Origin: an uncultured Phascolarctobacterium sp.
GTDB taxonomy: Bacteria > Bacillota > Negativicutes > Acidaminococcales > Acidaminococcaceae
DNA length: 64,000 bases
Assembly: GCA_949285135.1 (NCBI GenBank)
Contig: CASDXO010000002.1
Span: forward strand, 1-64,000
Reading direction: 5' to 3'
Positions 12,324-25,837 of the stretch are shown piece by piece; the first letter of the stretch is position 1; every line of letters begins with the position of its first letter. The notes beneath the pieces are model-generated. The model saw nothing but the letters and a program-made list of their open reading frames with translations, was not told the DNA's origin and did not search any database. The position numbers were made by a program, and so were the translations under genes.

Positions 12324-15300
12324 TTGTTAGATGTAAATAATTTTGAGTCTATGCGTATCGGTTTAGCTTCTCCGGACCAGATAAGAGCCTGGTCCTATGG
12401 TGAAGTAAAGAAACCGGAAACCATCAATTACAGAACACTGAAGCCGGAACGCGACGGCCTGTTCTGTGAAAGGATTTTCGGGCCTACCAAAGACTGGGAA
12501 TGCCATTGCGGCAAATATAAACGTATCCGCTATAAAGGCATCATCTGCGATAAATGCGGCGTTGAAGTAACCCGCAGCAAAGTTCGTCGTGACCGTATGG
12601 GTCATATCGAACTGGCAGCTCCTGTATCTCATATCTGGTACTTTAAAGGTATCCCCAGCCGCATGGGTCTGATCCTGGATATTTCTCCCCGCAGCCTGGA
12701 AAAGGTACTGTATTTTGCTAACTATATCGTACTGGATCCCGGCGATACCCCGCTGGTAAAGAAACAGCTGCTCAGCGAAAGCGAATATGTTGAAGCACGC
12801 GATAAATACGGCGATGAATTTGAAGTAGGCATGGGTGCTGCTGCCATTAAACAGCTGCTGCAGGAAATTGATCTGCAGCAATTGACTGACGAACTGCGTG
12901 CAGAAATGAAGGAAGTAAGCGGTCAGCGCAAAGTGCGTGCCGTACGCCGTCTGGAAGTCTGCGAAGCATTCCTTAAATCCGGTAACCGTCCGGAATGGAT
13001 GATTCTTGACGTAGTACCGGTTATTCCTCCTGAACTGCGTCCTATGGTACAGCTGGATGGCGGACGTTTTGCAACTTCCGACCTGAATGATTTGTATCGT
13101 CGCGTAATTAACCGTAACAACCGTCTGAAACGTTTGCTGGAGCTGCATGCTCCTGATATTATCGTACGTAATGAAAAACGTATGCTGCAGGAAGCAGTAG
13201 ATGCCCTGATTGATAACGGTCGTCGTGGACGCCCTGTAACCGGCCCTGGCAACAGACCTTTGAAATCCCTTTCCGATATGCTGAAAGGCAAACAGGGTCG
13301 TTTCCGCCAGAACCTGCTTGGTAAACGTGTTGACTACTCCGGTCGTTCCGTTATCGTAGTAGGTCCTGAACTGAAAATGCACCAGTGCGGTCTGCCGAAA
13401 GAAATGGCTCTGGAGCTGTTTAAACCTTTTGTAATGAAACGTCTGGTAAACAGCGGCGAAGCTACCAATATCAAGAGTGCAAAACGCATGGTTGAACGTG
13501 CCAATAATGTTGTTTGGGACGTTTTGGAAGAAGTAATCAAAGAACATCCTGTACTGCTGAACCGTGCACCGACTCTGCACAGACTTGGCATTCAGGCTTT
13601 CGAGCCTATCCTGTCTGAGGGTCGTGCCATCAAACTGCATCCGCTGGTATGTACTGCATATAATGCCGACTTCGACGGTGACCAGATGGCTGTCCATCTG
13701 CCGCTTTCCGTAGAAGCTCAGGCTGAAGCGCGTATGCTGATGCTGTCTGTAAATAATATCCTGGCTCCGAAAGACGGCAAACCTGTTGCTGTTCCTACTC
13801 AGGATATGGTTCTTGGTTCCTACTACCTGACCATTGTAAAAGAAGGTGCCAAAGGTGAAGGCCGCCGCTTCTCCAGTATTGAAGAAGCACAGCTGGCTTA
13901 TTTCCACGGCGTGGTAGACCTGCAGGCACTGATTAAAGTATATATTCCTAATGACCATATTATCGGCGAAGAGAAAACTGAAGGCGTAAGCCTCGTTACT
14001 ACCACTGTCGGCAATACCATCTTTAACAGTGAACTGCCGAAAGAAATGCGTTACTACCATAAGGAAGTTAATGCTGACGGTAAAGAAGAATGGCATCTTG
14101 GCAAACTGATTGATAAAAAGGAACTGGGTAAACTGGTTGCCAAAGCACATAAACTGTACGGCAATCTGCGTACCGCAGAAATTCTGGATATTGTCAAGAA
14201 AATGGGCTATGATAACGCTTGTAAAGCCGGCATCTCCATTGCTACTTCCGATATCAAGATTCCTGCTGAAAAAGCTGCTATTCTTGACGCAACAGAAAAA
14301 GAAGTCGATAAGACTGAAAGACTGTTCCGCCGCGGCTTGATGAGCCCTGATGAACGTTATCGTAAGGTTATTGATCTGTGGACTGAAGCTACCGATAAAG
14401 TTACTGAAAAACTTATGGCTACCACCATGGACAAATTTAACTCCGTATATATGATGGCTAATTCCGGTGCCCGCGGTAACGTACAGCAGATTCGTCAGCT
14501 GGCTGGTATGCGTGGCCTGATGGCCGATCCTTCCGGCCGCATCATCGACCGTCCTATTAAGGCAAACTTCCGTGAAGGCCTGACCATTTTGGAATACTTC
14601 ATTTCTACTCACGGTGCCCGCAAAGGCTTGGCTGATACCGCACTGCGTACTGCTGACTCCGGTTATCTGACCCGTCGTCTGGTAGACGTTGCTCAGGATG
14701 TTATTGTACGTGAAGATGACTGCGACGTAGTAGGCATGAATCTGGTTAAGGAACGCAACCGTCTGTGCAAGGCTGTTCTTGGCTGCAGCCAGAATAAGAT
14801 TCGCGAAAGTGTTCTTGGACGTACACTGGCTTCCGGTATTACTGCCGAAGACGGTCATATCGTTGCAGAAGCAGATACTATTATTACAGAAGATCTGTAT
14901 AAGAAACTTACAGCTGCAAAGGTTGAAGAAATCGTTCTGTATGTAAATGAAGATATGAACGGTGAAGAAACCGAAAAAGTACGCATCAATATCAGCGATG
15001 AATATGCTAACAAAGTATTGAAAGAAGCAATGCTGCATAACTTTGAAGGCAAGGAAGTTGCTGCTGATATCGTAAACGGTGAAGGTGAAGTGCTGGCTCA
15101 TATGGGTGATACCATGACTGCCGAAACTATCGACGCCATCTTGGCTGACGGTACCGTTAAAGAAATGCGTATTCGCAATAACGATATTGCCGGTATTGAA
15201 GTTGAAGCCATTACCGAAGGTAAAAACAAACAGACCGTTATCGAGTCCCTGCATGACCGTATCATCGGCCGTAACCTGGCAGAAGATATCTGTGATGAAA

Positions 15301-16325
15301 ACGGTGAAGTACTGTTCCATATTAATGAGTATATTACTGAAGAAATGGCTGAAAAGATCTGCACTCTGCGTGAAAAAGTTAAGATTCGCAGTGTCCTGAC
15401 CTGTAAGGCTAAATTTGGTGTCTGCCGTAAATGCTATGGCCGCAACCTGGCAACCGGCAAAAATGTTGATGTCGGTGAAGCAGTTGGCACCATTGCAGCA
15501 CAGTCCATCGGTGAACCTGGTACCCAGCTTACCATGCGTACCTTCCATACCGGCGGCGTTGCAGGCGGTGACGATATTACCCAGGGTCTGCCTCGTGTTG
15601 AAGAACTGTTTGAAGCACGTAAACCGAAACATCCTGGTATCCTTACGGAAAACACTGGTTTTGTTCATATCATCGAAGAAGGCGGCGCACGTCGCGTAAT
15701 CGTTACCGGTGAAGACGGACTTGGCCAGGAATACACTATTCCGTATGGTGCTAAACTGGCTGTAATCGAAGGTCAGCAGATTGAAAAAGGCGACCGTCTG
15801 ACAGAAGGTTCTCTCAATCCGCATGATATCCTGCGTATTAGCGGCGTAAAAGCAACCCAGCGTTATCTGGTACAACAGGTTGTTGGTGTTTATAAATCCC
15901 AGGGCGTTGATATCAACAGTAAGCATATTGAAGTAATGGTTCGTCAGATGATGCGTAAAGTTCGTATCGAAGAATCCGGCGACACTACGATGCTGCCCGG
16001 CGAGTACGTTGATGTAGCTGAATTTGAACAGCAGAATGAAGAAATGCTGGAAGCTGGCAAGGAACCTGCTGAAGGCCGTCCGATTCTGCTTGGTATCACC
16101 AAAGCTTCTCTGGCAACTGATTCCTTCCTTTCTGCAGCATCCTTCCAGGAAACTACTCGTGTCCTGACTGATGCGGCTATCAAGGGCAAGGTTGACCCGT
16201 TGCTGGGCCTGAAAGAAAATGTCATTATTGGTAAGCTGATTCCTGCTGGAACCGGCATGAGCCGTTACCGTGATATTAAGATTAAATATAATCTTACCCG
16301 TGACGAAAAGAAAGATAACGAATAA
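12324..16325 (+). CDS. rpoC: DNA-directed RNA polymerase subunit beta-prime, with expanded zinc-site region
   Basis: A 1333-residue beta-prime subunit starting at TTG ([20 protein letters not shown]) after AAGGGAG. The N-terminal zinc finger is [19 protein letters not shown] and the catalytic loop is NADFDGDQM. The second zinc site is C800, C1027, C1034 and C1037. In E. coli the first two of these cysteines lie about 74 residues apart; here 227. The extra length holds two more copies of the roughly 75-residue motif that is normally single before the last three cysteines. The protein is longer than the roughly 1200 residues of B. subtilis. An intrinsic terminator follows. Confidence 0.98.
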
Positions 16326-16338
16326 ATCTTTCCAAAAA

Positions 16339-16382
16339 GAAAACACTGCTTATCCTTTTATGGATAGGCAGTGTTTTTTTGT
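16339..16382 (+). terminator. Intrinsic terminator after rpoC
   Basis: AAACACTGC and TATCC pair with GGATA and GCAGTGTTT around a short T-rich loop, followed by seven T. It ends the rpoBC unit before the two-component genes. Confidence 0.88.
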
Positions 16383-20158: not shown

Positions 20159-20548
20159 ATGCTGATAAAAAAATTTCCCGTACCATGTCGTATAGATTAT
20201 GTGCCGTCACCCTATGAGCCTGATGAAGATGGTGTAATGGATGTCGGCTACTGCTGCGGCAAGCTCAGTGACGGACGTGACTATCGTCTGGAATGCTGGC
20301 GCATGGATGATATGCTGATGGCAACAATAATGTTTTCAGATGCAGGACTTTCTGCCTATAATCGTCAGGATATGTACTGTCTGGTAGAGGCAGAGGAGCT
20401 GTTTAATTTTACTACAGAAAAACGCCCCATGCAGTGTGCCCGCACAGAAGATGATGCAGGAACTGCGGTGTGGGCTTTGAACATGATGCTGGCCAATAAT
20501 AAAGGAACTTATGGTGAGCTTTTGGTAAAACTGCAAAGTTATAAATAA
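20159..20548 (+). CDS. Hypothetical protein, 129 residues
   Basis: I do not recognise this protein. It has no signal peptide or membrane segment, so it should be cytoplasmic. It is rich in acidic residues and cysteines (YCCGKLSDGRDYRLECWRMDD, MYCLVEAEEL). GAGGAG precedes the ATG. The small cysteine-rich gene starts 23 bases downstream and probably shares its transcript; two strong terminators follow that gene. Codon use resembles the neighbours, so it is likely a real native gene. Confidence 0.7.
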   Translation: MLIKKFPVPCRIDYVPSPYEPDEDGVMDVGYCCGKLSDGRDYRLECWRMDDMLMATIMFSDAGLSAYNRQDMYCLVEAEELFNFTTEKRPMQCARTEDDAGTAVWALNMMLANNKGTYGELLVKLQSYK

Positions 20549-20571
20549 TCCATATGAGGAGGAGAAAGATT

Positions 20572-20721
20572 ATGGAAAGAGAACATTGCAATGAAGCTAA
20601 CTGCACCTGCCCGAAAAAGGAATGCCCTCGGCACGGTAAATGTTGTGAATGCATTATGAATCATCGCGGTAACGGTTCTTTAGTTTACTGCATGCGTGAT
20701 ATTGCAGCAGCACAGAAGTAA
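20572..20721 (+). CDS. Small cysteine-rich protein, DUF6485-like
   Basis: A 49-residue protein starting at ATG 20572 behind GAGGAGGAG. It has eight cysteines, most of them within residues 6-25 (HCNEANCTCPKKECPRHGK then CCEC), and a ninth near the end (VYCMRD). The pattern CTC...C-P-R-H/K-GKCCEC...H resembles from memory the small DUF6485 proteins common in Firmicutes, probably metal-binding. Function unknown. It is followed by an intrinsic terminator 12 bases after the stop. Confidence 0.75.
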   Translation: MEREHCNEANCTCPKKECPRHGKCCECIMNHRGNGSLVYCMRDIAAAQK

Positions 20722-20733
20722 AAAGGCAAATAA

Positions 20734-20767
20734 AAAGACCCGGAATTTTTCCGGGTCTTTATTTTTT
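20734..20767 (+). terminator. Intrinsic terminator after the cysteine-rich protein
   Basis: Ten-base-pair stem AAAGACCCGG / CCGGGTCTTT (20734-20743 with 20751-20760) with a seven-base loop and an A-interrupted T run. Confidence 0.9.
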
Positions 20768-20784
20768 TAACAAATTTGATTCTT

Positions 20785-20817
20785 AAAGCCGATGCGAATA
20801 TACGCATCGGCTTTTTG
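20785..20817 (+). terminator. Second tandem intrinsic terminator
   Basis: Twelve-base-pair stem AAAGCCGATGCG / CGCATCGGCTTT (20785-20796 with 20803-20814), six-base loop, then T5. Two strong terminators in a row insulate the adhesin promoter from upstream transcription. Confidence 0.9.
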
Positions 20818-20975
20818 CATAGATAGATAAATAAAAAAATTTGACAGAAATGTAAAAAAATAAAAATAAAATAAAAAGATTTTATATAAAAATAATTATA
20901 TTGAATATAAATAAAAATGCATAACAAAATTTGTTTTTGAGATAGAGATGAATAAATAATTAAAAATACGTATGT
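20818..20975 (+). other. AT-rich stretch upstream of the adhesin promoter
   Basis: This noncoding stretch is almost entirely A and T, with A tracts spaced roughly every helical turn, as in UP elements or intrinsically curved DNA. TTGACA occurs at 20841-20846, but I see no well-placed -10 after it. No gene is visible. Confidence 0.5.
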
Positions 20976-21003
20976 TTGACGGGGGGGGACAATATGCTAT
21001 GAT
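20976..21003 (+). promoter_or_regulatory. Adhesin promoter with poly-G tract in the spacer
   Basis: -35 TTGACG at 20976-20981 runs directly into a tract of eight G (20981-20988). The spacer totals 16 bases (20982-20997) and ends in TGC, followed by -10 TATGAT at 20998-21003, an extended -10. Gaining one G would give the optimal 17-base spacer. Poly-G tracts in this position cause phase-variable transcription by slipped-strand mispairing in Neisseria surface-protein genes. No other promoter is evident between the terminators and the adhesin. Confidence 0.65.
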
Positions 21004-21027
21004 TGGTATAAATAAAAGTTAATTATA

Positions 21028-21102
21028 TTCAGTCTTGACTGGAATTTTTATACAGTGCGATTGTATGCAAAAAATATTATTTTTATGCAAAGCAAGACTG
21101 AG
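21028..21102 (+). promoter_or_regulatory. Hairpin in the adhesin 5' untranslated region
   Basis: TCAGTCTTG (21029-21037) pairs with CAAGACTGA (21093-21101). Inside, TGCAAAAAATA can pair imperfectly with TATTTTTATGCA. It lies in the roughly 140-base leader, after the predicted transcription start and about 50 bases before the ATG. It may stabilise the mRNA. Confidence 0.45.
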
Positions 21103-21149
21103 AAAAACCTGCTTTTATTTATAACTATATCAAAGAGGAAGGGATTTTT

Positions 21150-24100
21150 ATGTCAAAAACAAAGAAATCTAAACTTTTGGCATCTATGTTATGTGCAACA
21201 GTAATGGCTGGTTTGTATGCTGGTCCGGTAATGGCAGGAAGTGTAGATAGTATTACAGGTGATAATACAGGCGTTCATATTAATATCGGCTATGAGATGG
21301 ATGAAAACACGTCAGTCAATGGCGGAACCATTAATGGTAGCGATGGTCTATATGTTACTGGCGCATTGGGCAATAGTGACGGTGCTTTAAATCATAAAAT
21401 TGCTGGTCGTTTGACAATTTCATCAGAGGCTATAGTTAATTCTCTTGAAAGTAAATCCTTTAATGAGCTGACTATAGGTGGTACTACTTTTAATACTACT
21501 AATATCCAAAGTTTTAAAACAGAGTATGAAGAATTAAAAAATAAAGTAGATCAATTAGAAGGTGGAGAAGACTTAACTCCTAGAGTTGAAGCGCTTGAAA
21601 CTAATACAACTGGTATTAGTCGTGATGGTAATACTACAAAAATTTCTGGTAGTTTAGAAACTGGTACCATCACTGCAGCTAATGGTAATTTCAAGGTTAC
21701 CGATACTGGTGCTATTACTGCCCAAAGAGGTTCCAAAATCGGCTCTGCTTATTTTGGAAATGGATATGTATCGGTAAATGATGGTAACGAAACTGAAGCA
21801 TCAATTGGTGGTAATCATCGTGATGGTGGATATTTGAAGTTAAATACTAAAGATGATGAACTTGTTGAACTCACAGGTGACCAACTGAGAGATATTAAAA
21901 ATGGCACACAGAATATAAAATATGATGAAGGAAACAGACAAACTGTAATTGAAGGTGCAACCAGCTTTGATGCAAGTGGTATGGGCATTGAAAGCATGGG
22001 TGGTCAGACTACTTTAGTTGGTGGTCAGGCTGTATTTAGAGACCAAAATGGTCAGTTTACTCAAGTTATGGGCGGTACTGTTAACGCTTCTCAAGATGTT
22101 GTTGCCAATGGTACAAGTTTGGTTGCCGTAGGTACAAAAACAAGTGAACTGGAAGAAAAGACTACCGCAATAGAATATACTCCTGGAAATCCTGATGGTA
22201 TTGGTTCTCAAAAATTAGGTACAACTACCATAAATGATATTTTAAAGGCTGATGTATTTACTGCAAATTCAGGTACCGTTGGTGGAGTGACCATGATGGA
22301 TGGCTCCTTGTATGCTGCGAGTGGCAACTTCCTGGTTGATGAAACTGGTAATGTTACTGCAAAAATGGTAACTACAGAAAATGTAGCTTCTGCAAATTAT
22401 GATTTGGAAACTGTTGGTTCAAAACTTTCAGATTTAGATAATAGCATATCTGGTGACGATGGATTAGTTAAGAGAGTAGAAAAGGTTGAATATAATACAT
22501 CAGAAATTAGTGTGGTAGGTTCTGGAAATAATAAATGGACCAATGTGTCTTCTAACATGAATGTTCAAGGCGATTTTAAAGTATCTGGTAATACAGAAGT
22601 ATCTGGTAATATAGAAGTATCTGGTAATACAAAGATTGGTGGAACACTGGTCGCTCAAGAGGTTGCTAATAAACAAGGTGTGACATTAAGTAATCTTGAT
22701 AGTAGATTAGATATTGGAGAGGCAGATATTGATGCACTGCAAAATAAAACAACAGATATCAGATATGCTGATGGTGTAACTGAAATTGGTAATGGTGCAT
22801 TAGCTGTGAATAATGAAGGTTATGTAACTATTAATCAGGGTATGATAACAGCTGATATTAGTAATGGTTTAGTAACCATGGGTAATAACATTGAGCTGAA
22901 TACTCAAGATGGTATCATCAAAGCTGAAAACTTCCAAACAAATAAATATGATTTAAATTCTGTTGGGGAAGAGCTTGATGCTTTAGGTGGTAGTGTGAGC
23001 GTTGATATCAGTGATTTGAAACGTAAAACTACTGATATTGAATATGCAGATGGCGTAACTACTATTGCAAATACAACCAATTTTAGTGAAGATGGAATGC
23101 AAGTAAATGCTGGAAGCAGTTATTTAAATGTTGATAAAGATAAAGTTGTACTTACAAATAATGGTAGTGGCATTTCTATAAGTGATGAAGGTATGTCTTT
23201 GTTTAGCCAAGGCGGATCAAATGAGATTAGAGTTACAAATACTGGAACCGAATTTGTCAATGCTTTAAATGGAACAACAACTATTATTGATGGTGGCGCA
23301 ATTACAGCAGATAGTTTGACTTTAGGTGAAATGAATGTTAAAGAAGCTATCACAAACTTGCAAGATACCGTTGGTGGTATGGTTGATGCTGGTCTTCCTG
23401 ACAAAGTTGCAGGTATCGAACGTAATGGTGAAACTACTACTATTGAGGGTACTTTAAGTGTTTCTAAAGACTTCATTGGTGCTAATATTGAAGGTTCAAT
23501 CTTTGGTGTTTCTGATGAAGATGTAACAATTGCACATGGTTCTAATGGTATTGCAATCAATAACATGGGTGTACAACTCAGTGGCAATGTTTACTTTGAT
23601 GGAAAAGATGGCAACAGCTATACTTTAGCAGATTTAGAAGATCGTGTAAGCATCCTTGAAGATAAAACTCAAAACATTACTGGCTCTAAACCTGGAACTG
23701 GCGAAGGCGGTAGCACTGTACCTCCGACAAATGATGGACATACCGGTATTGAAGGAGATGTAACTGTTGGTGGTGAAATTAATGCCGGTAGCGGTACTAT
23801 TGGTGGCGTAACTATGGAAGATGGTCAGTTAACTGCTGATAAAGCAACTATTGGTGATGTAACTGTTGGTGGCAGTCTTAATGTAGCCGATAAAGTTACG
23901 GCTGATAAAGACGGAGTAACTGTCAAAGGTGACGGTGAAAATAATGTTAAGATTGATGGTAATGACGTCAGCGTATCTTGGAAAGATGATGAAGGAAATA
24001 GTTATGAAACCAGCATCAGAGATAACTATGAAGCTATCAACGACCTTGACAACCGTGTAACTGGTGAAGTTAACCGTCTGGATAACCGCATTGATAAAGT

Positions 24101-24600: not shown

Positions 24601-25011
24601 ATGAAAAAAGTAATAATGATTTTAACCGCAATTTTTACCATAGCTTTTGCAGGTATCTGCATGGCAGCAGATGGTGCAGACCTGAATAAACAGCAAGCTG
24701 CAGCAGAAACTTTTATTAAAGCATTCAGTCAGACAGTACCTTCCTATAACGACTTTACCAAAGGCTTTGATGCACAGCTCAAAAAGAAATTTAATGAAAA
24801 TACTTATACAGTTCTGCAAAACCAGGTAAAAGATAAATTCGGCAGGATGAAAGAAGCAAAATTCTATTCTTTCCAAAGATTTGACCAAATTGACAGGGTT
24901 ACCTATATTGCTGCCTTCAGCAAAGAAAAATTGGTTAGTATAAATCTTGCATTTAACAAAGATAACAAGATGATAGATTTTGCTCTCAGCCCTGTAGAAC
25001 AAAATAAATAA
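24601..25011 (+). CDS. Secreted protein of unknown function, 136 residues
   Basis: A signal peptide (about residues 1-22, hydrophobic core then GICMA/AD) predicts export to the periplasm. The mature part of about 114 residues begins with a helical segment (LNKQQAAAETFIKAF) and continues with alternating beta-like segments (VTYIAAFSKEKLVSINLAF). The size and layout recall DUF3887-type small periplasmic domains, but I cannot confirm the family. AAGGAG precedes the ATG by 8 bases. It is followed after seven bases by another secreted protein gene and then a regulator, probably one operon. Confidence 0.75.
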   Translation: MKKVIMILTAIFTIAFAGICMAADGADLNKQQAAAETFIKAFSQTVPSYNDFTKGFDAQLKKKFNENTYTVLQNQVKDKFGRMKEAKFYSFQRFDQIDRVTYIAAFSKEKLVSINLAFNKDNKMIDFALSPVEQNK

Positions 25012-25018
25012 TTAAACC

Positions 25019-25492
25019 ATGAAGCTGATACGTTTACTTACAATCACAATTATCTTGCTGTTTTCTTTATCTTTAACATTGACTGCTGATGCGCAGAAGC
25101 TGCAGAAAGCAGGTAATACTGACTGCGGTATCCTCTATGTCGACACGGACACTGTAAGGACAGTAAAAAAAGACGGACAATATTACCTTGCAGTAGCAGC
25201 AGAAGAAAAATATACTGATGCAGAATTTCTTGCCTCTTTAAGGCAGGGAGAAGATATGCAGCAGGCAACAGCAGCAGTGTATCTGTATTTATTTGATAAC
25301 AGGGGAGCAAATTACTGTATAGCGGCAGCATATATTGTAGATGCAGAGGGAAAAGTATGTGCTGACGTAGGCAGCAATATGACACTTCTGCCAGTAGGTA
25401 AGGACAAAACAATGAGCAATGCTTACAGCATGGCGTTGAAAGCCTTGGAAAACAAAAACAGGTGGCAGAAGAAAAAGAACTTTATAAGATAG
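25019..25492 (+). CDS. Secreted protein of unknown function, 157 residues
   Basis: A signal peptide (about 1-25, a long Leu/Ile/Thr-rich core ending TADA/QK) directs it across the inner membrane. The mature protein contains two or three cysteines (NTDCGILY, NYCIAAAY, GKVCADVG) and ends with a basic tail. I do not recognise a family. The ATG lies only seven bases after the preceding stop, and a weak Shine-Dalgarno lies inside the upstream gene's end, so translational coupling is likely. Confidence 0.7.
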   Translation: MKLIRLLTITIILLFSLSLTLTADAQKLQKAGNTDCGILYVDTDTVRTVKKDGQYYLAVAAEEKYTDAEFLASLRQGEDMQQATAAVYLYLFDNRGANYCIAAAYIVDAEGKVCADVGSNMTLLPVGKDKTMSNAYSMALKALENKNRWQKKKNFIR

Positions 25493-25504
25493 GGGGATGT
25501 GATG

Positions 25505-25837
25505 ATGTCGGAAGATATCAAGGAAATAGATTACAGAAAAATAGGTGAAAACATCAGATTCACCAGGATGTCAAAAGGTGTATCGCAGATAAAGCTGGCC
25601 AGATCACTGGACATATCACAGACCCATATGAGCAATATAGAAAATGGAAATACGGGGCTAAGCCTGGCGACAGCTATAAAAATCAGTAAATATCTGGGAT
25701 GCAGTATAGACGAGCTTGTTTATGGTAAAAAAGAAGAAAATGAAAAGAAATCTGAACAGGATATACTTGCAGGATTTTCAGCAGAAGATTTAATAGATGC
25801 ACTGCGATTGATTGCTTTGAAAAATAAGTTAAAATAA
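25505..25837 (+). CDS. XRE-family helix-turn-helix regulator
   Basis: A 110-residue protein with an HTH_3 domain at about residues 8-65: IGENIRFTRMSKGVSQIKLA, then DISQTHMSNIENG and ISKYLGCSIDELVYG, the usual Cro/CI layout. A Lys/Glu-rich linker and a short C-terminal helix follow. GTG 25499, ATG 25502 and ATG 25505 are all in frame; I chose 25505 because it is best spaced from AGGGGG at 25491. It is the last gene of a unit with two secreted proteins. Targets are unknown. Confidence 0.88.
   Translation: MSEDIKEIDYRKIGENIRFTRMSKGVSQIKLARSLDISQTHMSNIENGNTGLSLATAIKISKYLGCSIDELVYGKKEENEKKSEQDILAGFSAEDLIDALRLIALKNKLK

Follow-up and report, generated by a model that had tools for sequence, protein, structure and literature searches.

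The eight-G tract in the promoter of a trimeric autotransporter adhesin gene of an uncultured Phascolarctobacterium is, judging from sequence comparison, one copy of a promoter design common to many surface-protein genes and their regulators in these gut bacteria, and this design resembles a common docking site for a regulator more than it does a switch thrown by slippage. At about an even chance, we infer that a conserved, regulator-read element with the G tract at its core serves a surface-gene regulon of the Acidaminococcaceae, and that the element would be read by small XRE-type proteins. The promoter and the adhesin gene cluster behind it lie in the window (the whole 64-kb stretch of DNA that was analysed; Table 1).

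On direct reading, the -35 and -10 hexamers are separated by a 16-bp spacer (20982-20997), with TG at 20995-20996 and TATGAT at 20998-21003. The earlier note had thus correctly described a G8 tract that starts at the last base of TTGACG, a 16-base spacer and an extended -10 TATGAT; TG precedes the -10, and TGCTATGAT ends at 21003. A consensus scan of 20540-21160 returned this as the sole promoter-like site on the + strand (10/12 consensus positions, TG before the -10), and with its spacer of 16 bp it has the features of a sigma-70 extended -10 promoter (TGnTATAAT-like -10, -35 at 16-18 bp). It lies 3' of a strong terminator (20734-20760) and 146 bp upstream of the adhesin start. The tract is the only run of at least seven G in the window, which bears out the remark that no other G run of this length occurs there, although a single G7 would not in itself be unusual by chance in 64 kb (mean of 2.7 matches in shuffled sequence). 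The leader hairpins of both adhesin genes of this genome fold better than shuffled sequences (z -2.5 for the window, 21010-21149; z -3.2 for the paralog, L008 1748-1890), and the changes between the two hairpins are partly compensated.

Table 1. Features of the G-tract promoter and the adhesin gene cluster, in window coordinates.
Feature	Position	Strand	Basis
-35 hexamer TTGACG	20976..20981	+	direct read, consensus scan; kept in paralog
G8 tract, core of the proposed regulatory element	20981..20988	+	direct read; recurs in paralog and in 130 sites in genome/relatives
ACAA, right arm of the proposed element (left arm = TTG of -35)	20989..20992	+	3' of tract at 42/130 sites
Extended -10, TGC TATGAT = TGCTATGAT	20995..21003	+	direct read, scan
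Intrinsic terminator: 12-pair stem, loop 3, T tail	20734..20760	+	separates adhesin unit from upstream genes
Predicted 5' leader with long hairpin (21029-21037 pairing with 21093-21101)	21010..21149	+	folding vs shuffles
Trimeric autotransporter adhesin, 1115 aa	21150..24497	+	YadA_anchor E 2.3e-10, residues 1006-1062; signal-peptide-like N-terminus
DUF3887 protein, cluster gene 2	24601..25011	+	kept next to adhesin locus in relatives
157 aa protein without Pfam match, cluster gene 3	25019..25492	+	
XRE/HTH_3 regulator, cluster gene 4, candidate element reader	25499..25837	+	HTH_3 E 5.6e-13

The gene downstream of the promoter had been called a large trimeric autotransporter, and it does carry the C-terminal YadA-like anchor of that class; the placement in the Negativicutes was also right, as the named relatives of the adhesin belong to Phascolarctobacterium or the Acidaminococcaceae. 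The last gene of the adhesin cluster encodes an XRE regulator that is 48% identical to an XRE protein encoded on contig C11 of the same genome behind a G7 promoter. At 12324-16346 of the window, a long open frame of 1333 aa on the + strand overlaps another of 1327 aa on the - strand, an arrangement suggestive of unusual composition or of a repetitive gene. No DNA matches were found among phages.

Just two G8 tracts occur in the 1.89-Mb genome, each inside the same promoter architecture, and 4/5 of its tracts of at least seven G fall in this architecture; chance placement is therefore exceeded. The second G8 (C13:230516) is upstream of a paralogous adhesin gene. Tract and spacing are the same in this promoter even though the upstream regions have diverged to 79% identity: the 50 bp around the tract are nearly identical in the two, the -10 changes from TGCTATGAT to TGGTATTAT at unchanged distance, and the two adhesin promoters do not differ in tract length (G8 in both). 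The remaining three tracts of at least seven G are located before an SLH-domain porin gene, before an XRE gene that is followed by a gene for a signal-peptide protein, and inside an autotransporter coding sequence. The last of these (a G7 at G000:C1:50250-50256, L201) is within an open gene for a trimeric-autotransporter-like protein of 508 aa, in which slippage would shift the frame. The paralogous adhesin gene runs off contig C13, and contig C5 ends with a 72% identical C-terminus that is probably the rest of this gene. The passenger domain of this second adhesin (L030 12265-14605 on C13; L031 on C5) contains near-identical repeats, and the gene adjoins relaxase-like and integrase-like genes.

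The promoter class extends across the family. Using the pattern G7-N{3,12}-TGnTATnAT, with the reversed pattern as control, 59 Acidaminococcaceae genomes (most of the genomes being metagenome assemblies) were searched; the pattern was found in 22/59 genomes and 8/18 genera, with up to about 20 distinct sites per genome, versus 0-2 matches per genome for the control. Other Negativicutes families also carry the pattern, at lower frequency. One genome without the promoter class (G002) has 73 G7 matches, none of them in this promoter setting. Pattern scans of GTDB contigs and viral contigs gave no match to the exact promoter, and we found no description of the promoter class in Negativicutes or Phascolarctobacterium in the open-access literature.

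Among seven relatives of the adhesin with upstream sequence, four have a G7-G8 tract at the same position before the adhesin gene, and in one (L039) a G8 promoter is followed by an XRE gene and then the trimeric autotransporter gene. Two others (L040 and L042) lack a G tract before the adhesin. These two, from closely related Phascolarctobacterium MAGs (roe deer), have an (AT)n run directly after a -35-like TTG (L040 at 687, L042 at 5933), of 10 versus 6 units with nearly identical flanks; slippage is more plausible for this run than for the G tract, and the run is similar to the (TA)n repeat in the Haemophilus hif promoter. In a sister species (L004/L032, G001:C5), all that is left of the syntenic adhesin is a C-terminal piece (49-aa open frame with about 46 matching residues), which adjoins a serine-recombinase-like gene at the contig end.

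The geometry of the promoter class is fixed. We read 130 distinct sites, with tract lengths of G7 (92 sites), G8 (33), G9 (4), and G10 (1), although the collection demanded at least seven G, which inflates the apparent purity of the tracts. Alignment from the -10 gives the consensus GTCTTG-n-GGGGGGG-(A/T)ACAA-nn-TGTGnTATAAT. The -35/-10 spacing is 16 bp in 101/127 sites and 17 bp in 19/127, so that 120/127 have one or the other. When the components (bases before the tract, number of G, and bases after the tract) were permuted, the interval from TTG to TGnTATAAT equalled the mode in at most 64 sites in 5000 trials, versus 101/127 observed, and the interval variance was 1.74, versus 0.41 observed; the spacing is therefore held, with the number of G and the flanks compensating. 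A second distance shows the fixed internal spacing expected of a conserved site in an XRE regulon: the distance from TTG to CA is 13 in 51/76 sites with CA after the tract, whatever the number of G or the offset. ACAA is directly 3' of the tract at 42/130 sites, and CAA is absent at the matching place in a small control set of promoters that have TCTTG and an extended -10 but no G tract. Upstream of some open surface genes (L115, L122, and L139), the tract is interrupted by A or T.

SLH porins (20), XRE regulators (18), and trimeric autotransporters (16) are the largest groups encoded behind these promoters, at the 121 sites with a readable downstream ORF. The others are mostly envelope proteins, among them classical autotransporter-like proteins, glycosyltransferases, a polysaccharide export protein, CpsB/CapC, and a POTRA transporter, and four small downstream proteins appeared HTH-like by eye. 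Regulators and adhesins are linked: at least 12 of 19 XRE genes with a G-tract promoter are followed by a long, adhesin-like gene with a signal peptide, which gives the arrangement of an XRE regulon, namely a regulator gene that has the same type of promoter as its putative target genes and adjoins them.

In the mechanism that we propose, the element would be built into a sigma-70 extended -10 promoter, comprising GTCTTG (-35), at least seven G, (T)ACAA, and TGnTATAAT with a spacer of 16 (or 17) bp, and would serve a regulon of trimeric and classical autotransporters, SLH porins, capsule/glycan genes, and small XRE regulators. Small XRE-type proteins would bind TTG-Gn-CAA over the -35 and spacer and, once bound, would gate RNA polymerase; several are transcribed from G-tract promoters or encoded in adhesin clusters (as for 25499-25837), and they would also autoregulate. 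The outcome would be coordinated expression of surface proteins, with tract slippage not serving as the main switch. Gene neighbourhood and shared promoters make the XRE proteins the likely readers. Counting against an operator, the G core is not palindromic, the TTG arm doubles as the -35, and some orthologs differ in their number of G (8/36; see below).

Phase variation was the explanation advanced in the earlier note: slippage of the tract would alter the -35/-10 spacing and so switch the adhesin gene. Extended to the whole promoter class, slippage would turn many other surface genes up and down as well. The location of the tract in the spacer of surface-gene promoters, a typical contingency gene set, agrees with this, as does the same layout at Treponema tp0126 (PMC7864442). 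In addition, homologous promoters of different species with almost identical flanks differ in tract length (G7/G8 and G7/G9), which indicates that slippage from seven to eight to nine G happens between species, over evolution, and such slippage to eight or nine G may tune promoter strength. However, in pairs with at least 85% flank identity, which are few, non-independent and may include paralogs, the number of G differs in 8/36 homologous pairs, without clear excess over A/T tracts of at least six bases in the same alignments (4/37). G7 is the mode and G8 next, with longer tracts in only 5/130 sites; the lengths do not spread to spacings at which the promoter would be expected to be off; interrupted tracts are kept; and a study of Moraxella disregarded tracts of 7-8, these being at the lower limit of phase-varying lengths (PMC7302503). 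What stands of the proposal is a promoter with a spacer G tract before an adhesin gene, and homologous tracts one or two G apart between species. Its role as the main switch is not borne out, given the retention of seven or eight G, the spacing of 16 or 17 bp with compensating flanks, and the mostly fixed CA(A) distance. The postulated alternation of 16- and 17-base spacers with eight and nine G does have its counterpart in relatives, but since both spacers are standing states there, a change from eight to nine G need not be an off switch. The G count across related genomes is not one fixed number (G7 to G10), but is concentrated at G7 and G8. We therefore consider a phase-variable switch doubtful as the main explanation: the kept length, compensated spacing, and interrupted tracts favour a conserved regulator-read element over a slippage switch.

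It is also conceivable, if unlikely, that the tract is an intrinsic promoter feature, whereby a G-rich spacer would set promoter strength or the response to supercoiling or growth state via DNA shape, with no dedicated regulator and with the class having spread together with surface genes. The confinement of the element to the promoter and its fixed geometry accord with this possibility, but DNA shape leaves unexplained both the CA(A) at a fixed distance from TTG and the over-representation of XRE genes downstream of this promoter. A chance G run in an ordinary promoter has a negligible probability and was rejected: a seven-G tract is not unexpected in the window, but the paralog has the same element, as do more than 100 promoters of relatives, and control matches are near zero.

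Poly-G tracts in promoters are a known source of phase variation, as in tprE/G/J, tprL, and tp0126 of Treponema pallidum and porA of Neisseria (PMC7864442); the tract of tprL ranges from 7 to 11 within isolates (PMC7864442). As in those systems, the G tract here lies within or between promoter elements of genes for outer-membrane proteins, where its length would alter the -35/-10 spacing; unlike in those systems, lengths are held at 7-8, spacing is compensated, and conserved arms flank the tract. In Moraxella catarrhalis, uspA1 has a tract of 8-12 G with graded expression in one strain (PMC7302503). That gene also encodes a trimeric autotransporter with an upstream G tract, which affects transcription, whereas the element described here is family-wide and also precedes genes for regulators, porins, and capsule functions. 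For the candidate readers, the closest comparison concerns Bartonella henselae, in which a family of small XRE-type proteins (Brt/Trp) governs the trimeric autotransporter gene badA (PMC5387305). There, the Trp genes lie downstream of small RNAs, and the regulator tested, Trp1, has a positive effect on badA. In both cases small XRE-type paralogs are linked to a trimeric autotransporter, but a G-tract promoter does not feature in the passages of PMC5387305 considered here; in the Acidaminococcaceae, by contrast, the regulators have the promoter element in common and often lie ahead of an adhesin gene. The effect of the XRE proteins here may be positive or negative.

Adhesins of the same class are present in another Negativicute, Veillonella parvula, for which the regulatory circuits of the autotransporter adhesins are said to remain to be discovered (PMC7549365). 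A more far-reaching possibility, to which we assign a low probability, is that one G-core operator is common to a paralogous XRE family and to dozens of surface genes, with cross-binding limiting the set of adhesins or capsules expressed and one-base slippage of the core providing fine-tuning at each promoter; if true, this would constitute an undescribed surface-switching network in Negativicutes, with limited or mutually exclusive adhesins and capsules. The findings also carry a caution: a poly-G tract in a promoter spacer should not on its own be taken as evidence of phase variation. Much of how Negativicutes control their adhesins is said to be still undiscovered (PMC7549365); a promoter signature recognizable from sequence alone yields candidate co-regulated surface genes, and candidate regulators, in common gut commensals.
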